Source: a virus
Virus record (IMG/VR): IMGVR_UViG_3300019755_000013
Location: 1 to 29,851 of that record
Reading direction: 5' to 3' (one strand)
DNA: 29,851 nt
Shown: positions 7,952 to 29,564 of the stretch, piece by piece
Layout: each line of letters begins with the position of its first letter
Position numbering within the stretch: the first letter of the stretch is position 1
Notes under the pieces: model-generated
What the model was told of the DNA's origin: nothing
Seen by the model: the letters and a program-made list of their open reading frames with translations, nothing else
Database searches by the model: none
Made by a program: the position numbers and the translations under genes

Positions 7952-8548
7952 ATGATGTCGATACAACTGCTTTACAGCAGACAAGTACCAAGAACGATTA
8001 ATTGCGATATTAATATGTTAAAACGCAGCGTTAATGCGATAACAAGTGACGAGGTATTATCTATTTTAAGCAAGGTGCAAAGTAAACACCCTATCGGTAA
8101 TGCTGTTCTTGATGCTCAAATAGCATTAGACCCGATGGCTAGACGTTTATTAACAAAAACATTGACCGCAGCGCTAACCTATGAAAAATACGATAGTGAT
8201 ATTGCAAGCGCAATTGCAGAAGTTGCGGTTATGGAGGTTTGCGATAGTAATGTTTGCCCCATGTGCAAAGGTACTGGTGAATATATCAAGCAAGGCGAGG
8301 GCGTTGTTCAATGCTCAAGATGCAATGGGGTGGGTAGTTTTATATTAAGTAATCGTGCTTTACATAAAATGATAGTGAACTTGCTACCAGAAGAAAAACG
8401 CTTTTGTCGTGATACGTTTAGGCGCAAGTGGTACGATATTTATATGAGCGCAGTAGATAAACTACATCAATCGGCAGGTGATGCGTCAAGCTATGCTAAA
8501 AAGATTTTAAGAAAAATTGAAGATCAAGAAATTTCATTAATTAGGTGA
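7952..8548 (+). CDS. Q: Q-type late antitermination protein
   Basis: 198 aa (a second ATG lies at 7955); AGGA at 7943-7946. The centre carries two DnaJ-type CxxCxGxG knuckles at residues 102-109 and 121-128 (C102, C105, C121, C124), with helical flanks rich in basic residues, as in the zinc-containing Q family of lambdoid phages. Context supports it strongly: one gene and a short gap later comes a promoter (9127-9154) closely followed by an intrinsic terminator (9183-9213) and then lysis and head genes. Q would bind at that promoter, join paused RNA polymerase and let it read through the terminator. Family assignment is by pattern, not alignment. Confidence 0.75.
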   Translation: MMSIQLLYSRQVPRTINCDINMLKRSVNAITSDEVLSILSKVQSKHPIGNAVLDAQIALDPMARRLLTKTLTAALTYEKYDSDIASAIAEVAVMEVCDSNVCPMCKGTGEYIKQGEGVVQCSRCNGVGSFILSNRALHKMIVNLLPEEKRFCRDTFRRKWYDIYMSAVDKLHQSAGDASSYAKKILRKIEDQEISLIR

Positions 8549-8551
8549 CTT

Positions 8552-9007
8552 ATGAATAAAAAATCAATAGAAGATACATACACAGGATCATTAATCACAT
8601 GGATGGATTTAGAAAAACTTATATGTTGCCAAGCTGAAACTCTGAAAGCTGCGGTAAAAACAACTTTAGAGAACTATAAAAGGGATGCCCTGGAAGAGTA
8701 CAAAAACCAAACCAGACTAGATAAAACGAAAGGGCTTAGTCCTAGCTTAGTTATAGTTGATGATGTAAAGGATGGCTTTATAACTAAAACACAAGAAGAA
8801 ATAACAGACATAGAAACAAAAGCAAACGCATTACTAGAACTTGGTGAAGTGCAAAAACCAGTAGAAGACTATATTGAACTACTACAAGAAACAATTATGA
8901 CATACCAGGGAGAGTTGTATTCTAAAAATAGTGATATAGGTAGGTTAGAATTCAAAGTGAAAATGTTAGAAGAGGCCGCCAAGCGAGACAGCCTTGTTGC
9001 TGATTAA
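8552..9007 (+). CDS. Hypothetical coiled-coil protein
   Basis: 151 aa; ATG at 8552 with the weak TTAGGTGA at 8540-8547, four bases after the Q-like stop. The protein is rich in Glu, Lys, Leu and Thr; residues about 30-55 and 95-148 look like long helices, the last compatible with a coiled coil (…LEFKVKMLEEAAKR). No family is recognised. It is the last gene before the late control region. About 120 bases (9008-9126) then hold only a short CGTG/CACG hairpin (9077-9088) followed by T-rich DNA, a weak candidate for early-operon termination. Confidence 0.7.
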   Translation: MNKKSIEDTYTGSLITWMDLEKLICCQAETLKAAVKTTLENYKRDALEEYKNQTRLDKTKGLSPSLVIVDDVKDGFITKTQEEITDIETKANALLELGEVQKPVEDYIELLQETIMTYQGELYSKNSDIGRLEFKVKMLEEAAKRDSLVAD

Positions 9008-9126: not shown

Positions 9127-9154
9127 TTGACAATCGACCACTTTTTGATAGTAT
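9127..9154 (+). promoter_or_regulatory. Late promoter (pR'-like) with putative Q-binding element
   Basis: TTGACA (9127-9132) is a perfect -35; after a 16-bp spacer comes TAGTAT (9149-9154), a fair -10; predicted start near 9161. The spacer begins with ATCGACCACTTT (9133-9144). The same 12 bases recur at 26173-26184, again exactly 4 bases before a -10 box. In lambda, Q binds DNA between the -35 and -10 boxes of pR', so this 12-mer is a good candidate for the Q-binding element. The tight coupling to the terminator at 9183-9213 supports the assignment. Confidence 0.75.
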
Positions 9155-9182
9155 TTATCTACTCTAGGAAAACTACGTTTAC

Positions 9183-9213
9183 AGCCCGACTTTAACCAGT
9201 TGGGCTTTTTTTT
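9183..9213 (+). terminator. Promoter-proximal intrinsic terminator (tR'-like)
   Basis: GCCCGACT (9184-9191) pairs with AGTTGGGC (9198-9205) through 8 bp including one wobble, with a 6-base loop, directly followed by eight T (9206-9213). It lies only some 20-50 bases after the predicted late start site, so without antitermination only a short leader RNA would be made. Confidence 0.85.
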
Positions 9214-9235
9214 GGCTAAAATTTAGGTGAGACAA

Positions 9236-9751
9236 ATGAAAGGTAATTTACATATTGGCACTAAACTGGTTTTGGCTTTAGCTATGACCCGACTTGAATA
9301 TAACGAATATCGCGGTTGGGAATTGCCAGAAGACGAAGACGGAAATGATAGTGGTTACCTTGTTGAATATGTTGATGGTGGTGATTCAAACCATCCAAAC
9401 CATAAAGGTTATATTTCGTGGTCACCAGAAGAAGTATTCCATAACGCGTATAAAGTCTCTGGTGAAATGTCATTCGGCATGGCAATCGAATCCGCCAAGC
9501 GTGGCTATAAGATTGCCCGTTCTGGTTGGAATGGAAAGGGTATGTGGGTTATTTATAATCCTGGCAGTAATGGCGAAACCCATTCAATGTTTGATGGTAG
9601 CGTATATAAAAAACATGGTGTTGATGAATGTGAAATACTTCCACACTTTGATATGTATACTGTTAACTCTTCAGGTCGTAGAGCAATGTTACCTGGTTGG
9701 CTAGCTTCTCAAAGTGATATCGATGCTAATGATTGGATGATCATCGAATAA
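9236..9751 (+). CDS. DUF2829 (Tad2-like anti-defence) protein with N-terminal phage domain
   Basis: 171 aa; the ATG at 9236 is chosen because AGGTGA (9225-9230) is correctly spaced; an upstream GTG (9227) lies inside that ribosome site. Two parts are visible. Residues about 6-73 (IGTKLVLALAMTR…YRGW…GYLVEYVDGG…GYISWSPEEVF) form a domain seen alone or fused in many phage proteins, of unknown role. Residues about 78-171 match DUF2829: FGMAIESAKRGYKIARSGWNGKGMW and the closing GWLASQSDIDANDW. DUF2829 is the fold of Tad2, which sequesters signalling nucleotides of Thoeris and, in some homologues, CBASS. Anti-defence activity here is inferred from the family. Unusually, it is the first gene of the late operon, just before the endolysin. 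Confidence 0.85.
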   Translation: MKGNLHIGTKLVLALAMTRLEYNEYRGWELPEDEDGNDSGYLVEYVDGGDSNHPNHKGYISWSPEEVFHNAYKVSGEMSFGMAIESAKRGYKIARSGWNGKGMWVIYNPGSNGETHSMFDGSVYKKHGVDECEILPHFDMYTVNSSGRRAMLPGWLASQSDIDANDWMIIE

Positions 9752-19698: not shown

Positions 19699-20340
19699 AT
19701 GACTTTTTTAGAGTTATGCCAGCGTGCCCGACAAGAGTCGGGCATTTCGGGTGATGGTCCCGTTTCAGTACTTAACCAAAAAGCTATTTTACAAAAAGTA
19801 GTTGAGTGGGTTAGGCAAGCAGATATTGATATTCAGCGTTTACAGCTAGATTGGTTGTTTATGTGGCGCATGCAATCAATAACATTTACTGAAGATATTA
19901 ACGAATACGATGCTACAACGTTATTGCTACTTAACTTACGTGAGTTATTGTCAGTTGATATTGCAGGCAACGAGTTATGTTGTTACACGTGGGATGAATT
20001 CAAGCGCGAGAAATACCACTTAGCAACGGAAAAAGGACAGCCAACAGCATACACAATAAAACCCAATGGTTTAATTATGCTATACCCGATACCTAATGCT
20101 GACTATACAGCTACCGCAGAATACAGCTTAAAGCCTCAGTTGATGGTGAATGATGCTGATGTGTCGTTAATCCCTGAAAGCTACCACGACATTATTTTGC
20201 ATAAAGCGCTGATGTATTACTCAAGCCATGAAGAAGATCAAAATTTATATCAAGTCAGTGAATCACGATATGAAATGGTATTAAGTGAATTGGCCGCTAA
20301 TTACCTTCCTCGCATTAAAATGGCAGGTGGCATTCGATAA
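19699..20340 (+). CDS. Head-tail adaptor protein (SU10-adaptor-like)
   Basis: 213 aa, starting 9 bases after the previous gene. The N-terminus (MTFLELCQRARQESGISGDGP, then helices ending DIQRLQLDWLFMW) is characteristic of short-tailed phage adaptors that dock below the portal. A beta-rich middle (residues 60-150) and a C-terminal helix pair follow. The stop overlaps the nozzle-like gene start (TAATG). Confidence 0.8.
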   Translation: MTFLELCQRARQESGISGDGPVSVLNQKAILQKVVEWVRQADIDIQRLQLDWLFMWRMQSITFTEDINEYDATTLLLLNLRELLSVDIAGNELCCYTWDEFKREKYHLATEKGQPTAYTIKPNGLIMLYPIPNADYTATAEYSLKPQLMVNDADVSLIPESYHDIILHKALMYYSSHEEDQNLYQVSESRYEMVLSELAANYLPRIKMAGGIR

Positions 20341-21938
20341 TGGCTAGTAATACTAAAGTATCGAACATAGCGTTAACGGGTGGGTTAAATATAACATCGT
20401 CCGACCAAATGCTTGCCGAAGGTGAGTGTATGGAGTTGAAAAACTACGAGATAACAACCATCGGACGTTATAAGCGCGTTAAAGGATATGAACGTTTTAG
20501 TGGCGAACTACCGCCAAGCGAGGTTGTAGCCTCTGAATTACCTGGATTTCCTTTTGATACGACTAATGAACTGATCGATGCTATTTTAGCTGAGCAACTA
20601 GTTAGGCGTAATGCGATAGAGCAAGTTCCAGGGGCAGGCTCAGTGCTTGGTGTTTTTGGTTTTGATGGCGAGATATACGCTTTTAGAAACATTGAAGATG
20701 AAAGCGAAGCCAAAATGTACAAAGCCACGTTTGGCGGCTGGGTTGAGGTAACAACACCAGAACTTGAACCAAACGGTTATTACGAAGTACGCGAAGCAAA
20801 CTTTACAGGTTCGGTTGGAACGCGCGAGGTCATAGGTGTTGATGGTAAAAACCCTGCATTTAGATTTGACGGTACAACCTTTACGCAAATAACAACCGAT
20901 GTAACACCAGATGCGCCCACGCATTTAGAAATATTACCCAGTCAAATTTTACTATTGTCGTTTAGAGGCGGTAGTTTTTTATATAGCGCGGTTGGTGATC
21001 CTACAAAATTCAGTTCTGTTGATGGCGGTGGCGAAATTGCCGTTGGTCATGAAATTACAGGCATGGAAGTTCAAGCCGACTCTACAGTAGCGATATTTAC
21101 GCGCAATAGAACATTTATGCTATATGGTTCAAGTTCGTTAGATTTTCAACTAAAAGCCCTTGCGTTACGTTCAGGCGCATTAGAAAAAACTATTCAGTCA
21201 ATGGGTAGCACTATGTATTTAGATGATCGTGGATTAACACGATTAGACAGAGTGCAACAATTCGGTGATTTTGAAGGTGCAACCATTAGCCAAAAAGTAC
21301 AAACGTTACTTACTCAACGACTTCTTAATGTTCGTTGTAGTATGGTTTTAAGAGAAAAAAATCAATACCGATTATTTTTTAGTGACAATACCGCACTCAC
21401 ATTAACGCAATACGGAAGTGAAGTGCTTGGATTTACGCAGCTTAACTTAACCTTTACCCCTAATTGCGCGTGGTCTGGCGAAAACACCGAAGGTAAAGAG
21501 TCTTATTTTATCGGTGGTGAAGATGGCTATGTTTATCAAATGGAAAGCGGCAACAGTTTTGATTGCTACTCGTATGTTAGCTCTTTTCAAACTGGATTTA
21601 TCAATACTGGCGCACCAGAATACAAAAAACGGTGGCGAAAATTAGTGCTAGAAGCACAAAGCGTGTCAACACTAGAAGCACAATACAAGTGTTATTACGA
21701 CTATGCTGACCCAAACATACCTTTAAGCGATACCATGATAGGTAGTGGCGCAAAGTGGGATTTAAGCACATGGAATGATGCTATTTGGGGGGGTGCTAGT
21801 ACGTCATGGAGCGATCTATATATTGACGGTGTAAGCAGAAGCATATCGGTTTACATGAGAACAGAGTCAAATTATTACCCACCGCACGAATTAAGCCTTT
21901 TAATGTTGCATGCTAGCCCTCGCGGTCGCAGGAGATAA
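20340..21938 (+). CDS. Tail nozzle / stabilisation-type protein
   Basis: 532 aa, beta-rich throughout, no membrane segment. The start (ALTGGLNITSSDQMLAEGECMELKNYEITTIGRYKRVKGYERF) matches the opening of phage stabilisation or nozzle proteins that close the tail tube of podoviruses such as SU10-type phages. Repeated short strands with Gly/Asp turns (for example the DDRGLTRLDRVQQFG and YFIGGEDGYVYQM segments) suggest a beta-propeller. It probably forms the tail tip through which DNA leaves. Confidence 0.75.
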   Translation: MASNTKVSNIALTGGLNITSSDQMLAEGECMELKNYEITTIGRYKRVKGYERFSGELPPSEVVASELPGFPFDTTNELIDAILAEQLVRRNAIEQVPGAGSVLGVFGFDGEIYAFRNIEDESEAKMYKATFGGWVEVTTPELEPNGYYEVREANFTGSVGTREVIGVDGKNPAFRFDGTTFTQITTDVTPDAPTHLEILPSQILLLSFRGGSFLYSAVGDPTKFSSVDGGGEIAVGHEITGMEVQADSTVAIFTRNRTFMLYGSSSLDFQLKALALRSGALEKTIQSMGSTMYLDDRGLTRLDRVQQFGDFEGATISQKVQTLLTQRLLNVRCSMVLREKNQYRLFFSDNTALTLTQYGSEVLGFTQLNLTFTPNCAWSGENTEGKESYFIGGEDGYVYQMESGNSFDCYSYVSSFQTGFINTGAPEYKKRWRKLVLEAQSVSTLEAQYKCYYDYADPNIPLSDTMIGSGAKWDLSTWNDAIWGGASTSWSDLYIDGVSRSISVYMRTESNYYPPHELSLLMLHASPRGRRR

Positions 21939-26165: not shown

Positions 26166-26194
26166 TTGGTTTATCGACCACTTTAGCTTATTAT
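26166..26194 (+). promoter_or_regulatory. Second late promoter sharing the 12-bp element
   Basis: TTGGTT (26166-26171), a 17-bp spacer and TATTAT (26189-26194, five of six consensus). The spacer holds ATCGACCACTTT (26173-26184), identical to 9133-9144 and at the same 4-base distance from the -10. It lies in an 84-base gap between the tail and ejection genes. Its -35 is weaker than that of the first late promoter, so it may depend more on an activator or on Q. Confidence 0.6.
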
Positions 26195-26246
26195 TTACCC
26201 ATACTGCTTATCTTGCGTATATTTCTTCACTTCAAGGTAAAATCAC

Positions 26247-27542
26247 ATGCAAACAATAACTCAACCTTCTGTTAACCAACAGATAGGACAAACTTTTGCG
26301 CCCAAAAAAAAGGCTGTCAATAAAACGGTTACACCTGTTAGTCAATCACCCGACTACAACCCCAATGCGAATAACACAGGGTTATTGTCGCATGTTAATA
26401 CACAGGAAGATCACACTCCTGCAGGGCAAGGAAGATGGAATAATAATCCTAGCAAAGCTAACGATGTTATTACTATGGAAGAACGCGAGGCGCAAAAAAC
26501 TACAGGGCAAAACAATCAACCTAACCAACCTGTTAATGCTGGTACGCCGCAAACATCTTATGCAGCTAATGAATACCAAAGAGATGGTTATACTGGTGTA
26601 CAAGGTAATGTTGATTACAATTACGACCCACGTAGTGAATCATTAGTACAAAACCAAATAACAGGTTTGCTTGACCCAAATAGTGCAATGATGCGTAAAG
26701 CCATTGCTCAAGCGCAAGGTTATAATGCTTCAAGAGGGTTACAGTCAAGCTCGCTTGGTAGTGAAGTAGCTTTATCATCAATGATAGATAAAGCACTACC
26801 GATTGCACAGCAAGACGCAGGAACTTACGCCACAGCGGATCAAACAGGATGGAATCAATCATTTACCGCAGATCAAAATAACCTAAGCCGAGAACATGAA
26901 GCATCAATGTTTGATAAGCAAGGAAAATTAACAACTGACTTGCAAAACGATCAACTTAGTTTCTCTAACATGCAAAGCAATGCAGACAGAGCACAGCAAA
27001 CCAACTTACAAAATTTACAACACGAACAAAATTTAAGTTTAACTGACAGACAAGCCGAAATTCAAACTAAGCGTGATGAATTAATGAATTCGTTTGATAT
27101 GTCTAAAATGGATAAAACTTATTTACAAGATTTAGAGAAAACGCAAATAACATGGGAACATGATGATGATGTTTTTACACGAAATCTTGACGGGCAAGTA
27201 GCGCTTGAATACAAAAACGCCACAGCAGAGGCTTACAATGCTTATCTTGAGCAGGTAGCCGCAGTTTACAGCAACCCTAACATGACGTCATCCCAACAAC
27301 TGGCAGGCGTTCAGAAACTGCAAGAAATGTATTCAACGCAACGCCAACAAATGCAAATTATTTACAGCATAACACCTGGCAATGAATCTTATATTGATTG
27401 GAGTAGCAATCAAGTATCAACCGACCCTGTATTAAACGAAGGTGTTTCACCTGAAGGAGCAGGACAGACCACAACAGATTTACATGATCCTTATAGTCCG
27501 TACAACCCATATTCCAACCCTAGCGGCTACATAACACCTTAA
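26247..27542 (+). CDS. Internal virion / DNA-ejection protein 1
   Basis: 431 aa; AAGGT before the ATG. The N-terminal 120 residues are polar, disordered-looking and rich in Asn/Gln/Thr/Pro. From about 125 the helical core begins (SLVQNQITGLLDPNSAMMRKAIAQAQGYNASRGLQSSSLGSE is split here by a family-typical Gly-Leu-Gln-Ser-Ser motif near residue 158), followed by long Gln/Asp-rich helices. The C-terminus is Pro/Tyr-rich (DPYSPYNPYSNPSGY). Such proteins sit inside podovirus heads and are expelled with the DNA. Assigned by position and composition. Confidence 0.65.
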   Translation: MQTITQPSVNQQIGQTFAPKKKAVNKTVTPVSQSPDYNPNANNTGLLSHVNTQEDHTPAGQGRWNNNPSKANDVITMEEREAQKTTGQNNQPNQPVNAGTPQTSYAANEYQRDGYTGVQGNVDYNYDPRSESLVQNQITGLLDPNSAMMRKAIAQAQGYNASRGLQSSSLGSEVALSSMIDKALPIAQQDAGTYATADQTGWNQSFTADQNNLSREHEASMFDKQGKLTTDLQNDQLSFSNMQSNADRAQQTNLQNLQHEQNLSLTDRQAEIQTKRDELMNSFDMSKMDKTYLQDLEKTQITWEHDDDVFTRNLDGQVALEYKNATAEAYNAYLEQVAAVYSNPNMTSSQQLAGVQKLQEMYSTQRQQMQIIYSITPGNESYIDWSSNQVSTDPVLNEGVSPEGAGQTTTDLHDPYSPYNPYSNPSGYITP

Positions 27543-27551
27543 GGAATTACG

Positions 27552-28004
27552 ATGATTCGCACAGCTACGTTAAATGATATACCTAGCATTATAGGTATTG
27601 GTCAAAAGATCATTAATAAGTCATCAACATACAACGTCAAAGTAAACCCTGATAAGGCCGCTTACATGATCAGAAGATCAATTAATGACAAAAAAATGGA
27701 AGTGTTTGTATCAGTAAAAGCCGACCAAGTAGTCGGCTTTTTAATAGCCTTAAAAGATGAATACTGGTTTGCAAAAAAACATTATGCAACAGACTTGGCT
27801 TTTTGTGTTTTACCTGAACATGCAGATCAAGGCGTTTGGTTGTTAAGACGTTTTATTCGTTGGTGCAAAAAACAAAAAATCGAAAGCATTCAACTTGGTT
27901 TAAGTACAGGTTTAGACCCCAAAGGTCGTACAGGTAAGCTGTACGAATCACACGGATTAACATTAGTAGGTGGTATTTACGCCACAATTAAAGAGGTTGT
28001 TTAG
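27552..28004 (+). CDS. GNAT-like N-acetyltransferase fold protein
   Basis: 150 aa; TAAGGA before the ATG. It shows GNAT architecture: an N-terminal IRTATLNDIPSIIGIGQ helix motif, central strands (MEVFVSVKADQVVGFLIAL), the strand with DLAFCVLPEHADQGVWLLRRFI in the acetyl-CoA-binding motif A position, and the closing SHGLTLVGGIYATI. The pyrophosphate-binding loop (Q/RxxGxG/A) is altered to HADQGVW, so activity is uncertain. Similar proteins lie among ejection-protein genes of other podoviruses; substrate unknown. Confidence 0.75.
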   Translation: MIRTATLNDIPSIIGIGQKIINKSSTYNVKVNPDKAAYMIRRSINDKKMEVFVSVKADQVVGFLIALKDEYWFAKKHYATDLAFCVLPEHADQGVWLLRRFIRWCKKQKIESIQLGLSTGLDPKGRTGKLYESHGLTLVGGIYATIKEVV

Positions 28005-28005
28005 T

Positions 28006-28986
28006 ATGAGCGGTATTAAAAAAGCATTTAAAAAAGCATGGAGACCAGTAGAAAAAGCGTTTAGCGCCATGAATCAATTTTCTACACTTGGGCTACATAA
28101 AAAAACGACAAAAATACGGCGTAAAATTTTAGGCTCTAAAGTTTTTAAAGTAGTGGCCGCAGCGGTCATTATTTATTTTGGTGGTGCCGCTTTACTGTCA
28201 ATGGCTGGTGGAGGTACAGCCGCCGCAGGGGTTGGTTCCGCATGGGCTGGCGCTCAAGGTGCTGGCTCAGCGGTGATGGCTGGTAATTTTAGTGGTGCGG
28301 CTTCGGCACTTGGTAGCGGTTTTACTGGTGGTGCGTCAGCTGGTGCGGCAGGTACTTTTAGTGCTGGTAAAGCGTTAACGGCAGAAGCAATTGCAGGGGA
28401 TGCCGCAATTACCGCAGGCACAACAGCAAGTACAGTGGCAACAGGTGAAGCTGCCACAACCGAAGCTGCTTTAGCTGATGGTGTAGCAACGAGCGCTGAT
28501 GTTGCAAGCTCTTTGGGTGAAAAGGCAGTTGAAACTGGTGCTAAACAAGCGGTAGAAGCAGGGGCAAGTGAATTGGCAACATCAAGCGATGTTGTTTCTG
28601 CACTTGGTGAAAATGCTGTTAATACTAGTGCTGTTAATGCTGGCGGAGGGGCAGCAGAAGGAGGAGGTTTACTTTCTAACGCATGGAATGGTTTAGGTGA
28701 ATACGGTAAAGCTGCCGTTGTTAGCGGTGGCATTCAAATGGCAGGAACCGCAATGGCTGGTAAGGCAGAACAAGAAGCAGCCGAAGCAGCCGCAGCCGAA
28801 GCACGCAAAAAAACATATTGGGGTATTGATGCCGATGGTAATGCCGCATTAAATGCAGGAGAGATTAACTTTGGCTTACTTGCCCCAACACCACAGGCAC
28901 CACAGGCATCAACCGCGCCAACATGGCAAACGTCACTTGATGATTTAATTCAAAGGCAAAAAGCAACCGTTGGGGGTTACGCATAA
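28006..28986 (+). CDS. Ejection protein 2, Ala/Gly-rich with membrane segment
   Basis: 326 aa from the ATG at 28006, chosen for its AGAGG site at 27993-27997; the frame runs on upstream to 27970 inside the previous gene. The N-terminus (1-42) is strongly basic and helical. Residues about 43-62 form a hydrophobic helix (VFKVVAAAVIIYFGGAALL). A long Ala/Gly/Ser/Thr-rich, low-complexity region (65-270) follows, compatible with glycine-zipper helices that insert into membranes. This profile matches podovirus internal proteins that build the channel for DNA entry into the cell. Assigned by composition and position. Confidence 0.7.
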   Translation: MSGIKKAFKKAWRPVEKAFSAMNQFSTLGLHKKTTKIRRKILGSKVFKVVAAAVIIYFGGAALLSMAGGGTAAAGVGSAWAGAQGAGSAVMAGNFSGAASALGSGFTGGASAGAAGTFSAGKALTAEAIAGDAAITAGTTASTVATGEAATTEAALADGVATSADVASSLGEKAVETGAKQAVEAGASELATSSDVVSALGENAVNTSAVNAGGGAAEGGGLLSNAWNGLGEYGKAAVVSGGIQMAGTAMAGKAEQEAAEAAAAEARKKTYWGIDADGNAALNAGEINFGLLAPTPQAPQASTAPTWQTSLDDLIQRQKATVGGYA

Positions 28987-29564
28987 TGGATCAGCCAATT
29001 CAACAGCAGGCGCAAGGTCAAGCTGAACAAAACGCAGCACCACAAGAGCCAATGCAAGATGGTGAAGTACAAGCCACTGAACAAGAACAAGCGATGCTTG
29101 AACAGCTTTACATGGTTAGTGATAGCATCATTCACAACGAAGGGCAAGCAGGCGATAAAATTGCTGAAATGGTACTCAAAGCACAAGACGTTAGTGTAGG
29201 TATTGGTAATGCTGCATCAACTGTTTTGATAGGTACTGAAAAGCAAACAGGAAAAATACCTGATGATATGAAAATTCAGTTATCAATGGAGATTATCGCT
29301 ACATTATCAGAGCTTGCTGTTAATGCTGGTGCTTTGGCAGAAGATGAGATTGATGATGATTTTATTGATGCTGCCACAAGCAATATGTATAGCTCCTACT
29401 TGACAGCGAAAGAATCTATGGGCGAATTAGATCCACAAGAACTTGAAAGCTCAGTATCAGAAGCAGAGCAACTAATGGGTGCCAGTGTTCGCAATCAAAA
29501 GTCGCAAGGTCAACCACAACAACCACAAGGCGGCTTACTGTCTATGGGGGGTAAAAATGTCTAG
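28986..29564 (+). CDS. Ejection-cluster protein 3
   Basis: 192 aa; start overlaps the preceding stop (TAATG). The N-terminal 35 residues are Gln/Glu-rich; the centre (about 40-150) is helical and acidic (SDSIIHNEGQAGDKIAEMVL, AEDEIDDDFIDAATSNMY); the C-terminus is a Gln/Pro linker ending LLSMGGKNV. Such small acidic helical proteins occur in podovirus ejection gene clusters. No biochemical role known. It overlaps the next gene by 8 bases. Confidence 0.65.
   Translation: MDQPIQQQAQGQAEQNAAPQEPMQDGEVQATEQEQAMLEQLYMVSDSIIHNEGQAGDKIAEMVLKAQDVSVGIGNAASTVLIGTEKQTGKIPDDMKIQLSMEIIATLSELAVNAGALAEDEIDDDFIDAATSNMYSSYLTAKESMGELDPQELESSVSEAEQLMGASVRNQKSQGQPQQPQGGLLSMGGKNV

Follow-up and report, generated by a model that had tools for sequence, protein, structure and literature searches.

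The locus at positions 26166-26194 raises the question of whether a phage antiterminator of the Q type may act at two late promoters of the same genome. The window, that is, the whole stretch of DNA analysed, is a complete IMG/VR record of 29,851 bases, and this record is probably a fragment. Its early region is lambdoid and encodes an O-like replication protein, a DnaB helicase, NinB, a Holliday resolvase, and Q; it is followed by a lysis region and then by a structural module of the short-tailed-phage type (terminase, portal/head-tail adaptor, major head protein, and tail fibre). This is a temperate phage of the Pseudoalteromonas type. The closest complete phage found was Pseudoalteromonas phage vB_Pun_Y3 (OR779980.1, hereafter Y3), which shows the same late gene order and is 40% identical to the window phage in Q and 90% in the capsid protein; the Shiga-toxin-converting podoviruses are possible distant relatives. 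Lambda-type late control is taught as a single promoter with a single Q loading site that gives one long transcript, and to our knowledge only one Q late promoter is known in the classical lambda-like phages.

The original prediction started from the sequence ATCGACCACTTT, present at 9133-9144 and 26173-26184 on the plus strand. An exact search of both strands of the window found these two copies and no third one, which agrees with what had been claimed by eye, and it was also borne out that both copies lie inside a promoter spacer and end exactly four bases before the -10 box. The first promoter, pR' (9127-9154, plus strand), is formed by a -35 box TTGACA (9127-9132), a spacer of 16 nt, and a -10 box TAGTAT (9149-9154), and a homologous promoter follows the Q gene in six IMG/VR contigs and in Y3. 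The second one, p2 (26166-26194, plus strand), includes a weak -35 box with 3/6 matches (TTGGTT, 26166-26171), a spacer of 17 nt, and a -10 box TATTAT (26189-26194); it belongs to a block conserved before the same gene in the related loci L031, L034, L035, L116, and L117, in Y3, and in prophage G777. The -35 box and the spacer length thus differ between pR' and p2, and the element and a pause-like sequence are common to both. The conserved core of the candidate Q-binding element, CGACCA, occupies 9135-9140 in the first copy (9133-9144), where CRACCACTT is kept at the pR' of eight relatives, and 26175-26180 in the second copy (26173-26184), whose decamer CGACCACTTT is also found at the p2 of L031, L034, and L035. 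Relative to the transcription starts predicted from the -10 boxes, near 9161 and 26201, the core of either promoter would span about -26 to -21. Five bases past the -10 box, pR' shows a -10-like element of the form NANNNT (TACTCT, 9160-9165, plus strand), a candidate sigma-dependent pause, and the same offset is observed at p2 and in the relatives. The element at p2 is CATACT (26200-26205, plus strand), and CATACTGC or a close variant of it is present in the aligned p2 regions and in G777. Such a location would fit the loading of Q onto a polymerase held at a sigma-dependent pause.

A repeated 12-mer proves little by itself, because the window contains 149 direct-repeated 12-mers; the weight of the argument lies in the register and in the conservation. 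That abundance, together with the fact that generic promoter matches are no commoner in the window than in shuffled sequence, could suggest that the second copy arose at random, in an AT-rich intergenic region whose letters happen to look like a promoter. However, only 0.0027 copies of ATCGACCACTTT are expected by chance in the window, the p2 block is conserved before the same gene in related phages, and a matrix built from other phages ranked p2 second of about 60,000 positions; we therefore consider a chance origin highly improbable.

This matrix, of 33 nt, was derived only from the pR' sites of other phages (leave-own-out), and the scan of the window covered about 60,000 positions. In the window, pR' ranked first (24.8) and p2 second (22.8), and the next site scored 7.6; pR' and p2 were also the two top sites in L034 and L031. 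For Y3, pR' (30.0) and p2 (16.1) ranked first and second, followed by a site with 10.9, and the Y3 p2 fell to rank 100 when the element alone was used. In the window, L034, and L031, in-register decamer copies with at least 9/10 matches were confined to pR' and p2, and in lambda, P22, and HK97 to pR'. Likewise, in the window, L031, and L034 the arrangement CRACCA-8 nt-TANNNT-5 nt-NANNNT was limited to these two late promoters, and a scan blind to the element (TTG, -10 box, and -10-like element) returned three sites in the window, two of which are pR' and p2. Identity to the own pR' as a single template was dropped as a measure, since p2 does not stand out from noise by it (20-22/33 is also reached in lambda, P22, and HK97); we relied instead on the in-register decamer and the leave-own-out matrix. 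A wide pattern, WTCGACCACTTTNNNNTANNAT, gave 15 matches in IMG/VR, none of them beside a visible late promoter, and these were judged to be chance. The sequence TCGACCACTT appeared once in each relative, a false negative for p2, since p2 reads CCGACCACTT in these phages. We conclude that p2 is very likely a real promoter.

The original prediction also placed a Q-type gene before the first promoter and a tR'-like terminator behind it, and both were confirmed. The gene at 7952-8548 (plus strand) encodes a protein of 198 aa with a zinc-binding CxxCxGxG motif that matches PHROG 127 (antitermination Q-like, E 3.4e-13), and one ORF (8552-9007) separates it from pR'. When the profile of this Q family was compared with the PDB, the best match was lambda Q (E 0.004). 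The AF2 model (pLDDT 76.6) matched lambda Q in the loading complex (Foldseek E 7e-5; VIA Z 10.6); AlpA was the next family (Z 7.4), and the match to phage 21 Q was weak (Z 3.9). By sequence and predicted fold, this product is a relative of lambda Q. Behind pR', an intrinsic terminator with a T-run was located at 9183-9213 on the plus strand (hairpin 9183-9206, -13.9 kcal/mol, z -4.95). The first ORF downstream of it (9227-9751) encodes a C-terminal Tad2-like (Thoeris anti-defence 2-like) domain (PF11195, E 1.4e-20).

Q homologues (61-63% identity) are encoded on the six IMG/VR contigs, and each of these contigs carries, downstream of Q, the sequence TTGACT-TTCGACCACTTATTGC-TACTAT as well as tandem terminators. 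The corresponding pR' reads TTGACT-TTCGACCACTTTGATA-TACTAT in Y3 and TTGACA-CCCAACCACTTTTAGG-TATTTA in the L038 phage, which is also found as a prophage of Aliidiomarina maris (L118); in L117 (Rheinheimera), no pR' was identified. An additional observation concerns the G047 prophage (loci L134/L135, contig position about 162027), in which the pR' spacer is different and includes a perfect inverted repeat, GCATAAATGTTATGC, as a candidate element; no second copy of this repeat was found in the late region of G047. Given that the element of the window is unlike those of lambda, phage 21, or AlpA, it could be argued that another phage or host regulator binds it at both late promoters, with a role for Q at pR' alone or at neither promoter. 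Against this proposal, the pR' pattern TTGACNNNCRACCACTTNNNNNTANTAT occurs in IMG/VR only in the six Q-bearing contigs, beside this Q, and the position between the -35 and -10 boxes with a pause element just behind is a hallmark of Q and AlpA promoters (PMC6606751, PMC7969949). Accordingly, we consider it quite unlikely that a different regulator recognizes the element.

The distribution of the element among the relatives was informative at p2. L031 and L008 are on one contig, and so are L034 and L007; hence both promoter sites are known for these two phages. From L035 only p2 is available, and the other four Q-bearing contigs stop before the p2 position. In L031, L034, and L035, which are near-identical at p2 and are thus not fully independent, CTTGGAATCCCGACCACTTTAGCCTATTATTTACCCATACTGCC precedes the gene located behind the tail fibre. 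The decamer CGACCACTT(T/A) is present at pR' and p2 of L031/L008 and of L034/L007, as well as at the p2 of the L035 fragment, and at p2 the element remains unchanged in the window and these three relatives while the neighbouring bases vary. The search in related phages was less conclusive beyond this group. In Y3, p2 reads TTGGCTTATCAGCCAGTTTAGCTTATTATTTATCCATGCTGCC, with the promoter retained and 3/10 bases of the element changed (CAGCCAGTTT). L116 (Arsukibacterium), L117, and G777 retain the -10 box and the pause-like element of p2, and in L116 and G777 there is no clear element match to their own pR'. The L038 phage shows CAACCA in the right register with a terminator directly behind its p2, a suggestive site that was not significant by the matrix (rank 60); G047 does not have p2, given that the gene directly abuts with no gap in front, and L039 and L041 provided no usable promoter pair. 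The same element at the same position of two promoters is kept in the window, L031, and L034 and partly in Y3, and conservation of p2 does not always entail conservation of the element, as illustrated by Y3 and the more distant prophages. When the six p2 regions were aligned, conservation peaked over the -10 box, the following five bases, and then the -10-like element.

These data bear on the possibility that p2 is a conserved sigma-70 promoter that boosts the distal late genes independently of Q, and that its spacer resembles that of pR' only in one clade, for example as a remnant of recombination. The decayed element of Y3 and the retention of the -10 box and pause region in L116 and G777, despite the mismatch with their own pR', are in line with this explanation. 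Nevertheless, the element is exact at the p2 of the window and three relatives amid differing flanking bases, the -10-like element typical of Q-type promoters is retained at every p2, and the -35 box is weak; altogether, we find a Q-independent p2 unlikely. In the window phage and its close relatives, p2 most likely shares the Q element of pR', and Q would act there. The reading that we favour, with a probability of roughly 0.6, is that p2 is a second Q-loading late promoter for the gene cluster located after the tail fibre. The interpretation in the original prediction, a Q-binding element at both promoters and a second unit under the control of Q, was supported independently by the common register of the element at both sites of two relatives and at the p2 of a third fragment, the shared pause-like element, the likeness of the protein to lambda Q, and a conserved terminator within the p2 unit.

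The second site had been proposed to start a cluster of ejection proteins. A gene cluster is indeed present behind p2; the term ejection is derived from its position, and of the five genes compared with PHROG and Pfam (26247-29564 region), all but the acetyltransferase gave no match. The first gene (26247-27542, plus strand) encodes a putative injected/ejection protein of 431 aa, 48% identical to the product of the Y3 gene in the same place and with no match in PHROG or Pfam; the second (27552-28004, plus strand) encodes a GNAT acetyltransferase (PHROG 1249, E 2.7e-27; Pfam GNAT). In relatives, a giant gene of about 2,200-3,400 codons (e.g., L030:24147-34412), annotated in Y3 as DdrB-like ParB, follows the short genes of this unit, beyond the end of the window.

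No terminator was found between p2 and the first gene in the window. Instead, an intrinsic terminator is located within the coding sequence of the acetyltransferase (27716-27742, plus strand; -14.1 kcal/mol, z -6.75), about 1.5 kb downstream of p2, and its hairpin and T-run are as strong as those of tR' (-14.1 vs -13.9 kcal/mol). In six phages, codon identity at silent sites was 96% at this terminator and 52% for the whole gene, a conservation that none of 300 shuffles reached; no comparable silent-site window was found in the other late ORFs (16 late ORFs, 14 testable). The stem is invariant except for one change that preserves G-U pairing, the T-run is kept despite an alternation between Leu and Phe, and the loop is variable, including at places where this alters the amino acid. 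Another hairpin with a T-run was noted at 20951-20975, inside the 20340-21938 ORF, and at the matching place in L034 (near 12896); its silent sites showed no such conservation. In addition, an intergenic terminator precedes the giant gene in several relatives. Therefore, given the terminators in this unit, polymerases starting at p2 would need antitermination to reach the distal genes. Because the acetyltransferase hairpin is also present in G047, which lacks p2, and is weaker in G777, it may also serve transcripts from pR', or determine the ratio between the first gene and the later ones.

According to the model that we propose, sigma-70 RNA polymerase would start near 26201, and the -10-like element (26200-26205) would be the place where sigma holds the enzyme. 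Q, the product of the gene at 7952-8548, would bind CGACCACTTT in the p2 spacer, at about -26 to -17, and load onto the paused enzyme. The Q-loaded polymerase would then resist termination and transcribe the cluster that follows the tail fibre, reading through the acetyltransferase terminator and, in relatives, the terminator before the giant gene; in parallel, transcription started at pR', at about 9161, would cover the genes for lysis and structure. The steps that we infer in this model are the activity of p2, the pause, the binding of Q, and the dependence on Q. More tentatively, the late region could be split into two units licensed by Q, one started at pR' (lysis, head, and tail) and the other at p2 (post-tail-fibre genes and giant gene) and guarded by the terminator inside the acetyltransferase gene, so that what are probably injected virion proteins would be started and gated separately; we hold this broader idea with somewhat less than even confidence. 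If true, a phage Q with two sites would represent a natural experiment on how Q reads DNA, as well as a route to raise or time the distal virion genes separately. The terminator frozen within a coding sequence constitutes a second prediction, which can be easily tested.

In the open-access literature searched, we found no precedent for a phage with two Q-dependent promoters. The action of one antiterminator at two promoters is already known from the bacterial AlpA, and the arrangement of the window is a variant of lambda-type Q control. At pR'/tR' of lambda, Q uses a Q-binding element (QBE) and a sigma-dependent pause (PMC6606751, PMC7171158); it requires the element between -35 and -10 plus a -10-like pause sequence (PMC6606751). 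The window resembles lambda in the Q fold, the position of the element between the -35 and -10 boxes, the -10-like element in the initial transcribed region, and the terminator behind pR'. It differs in the sequence of the element, in the distance of the -10-like element from the -10 box (five bases, six in lambda), in the presence of the element at two promoters, and in the terminator of the second unit, which lies inside a coding sequence. Phage 21 Q follows the same kind of mechanism (PMC6606751), but its element consists of two 6-bp direct repeats, to which two Q molecules bind, and repeats of this kind are not evident in the window. In Pseudomonas aeruginosa, the AlpA element is located at -25 to -20 and is common to two promoters, alpB and PA0807 (PMC7969949, PMC9371919). 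There, one processive antiterminator serves two promoters that share an equally placed element, as we propose for the window (element at about -26 to -21). In contrast, AlpA is a bacterial regulator and not part of a phage late system, its element (GGGACG) differs from that of the window, and both of its promoters have a terminator directly downstream, whereas p2 does not.
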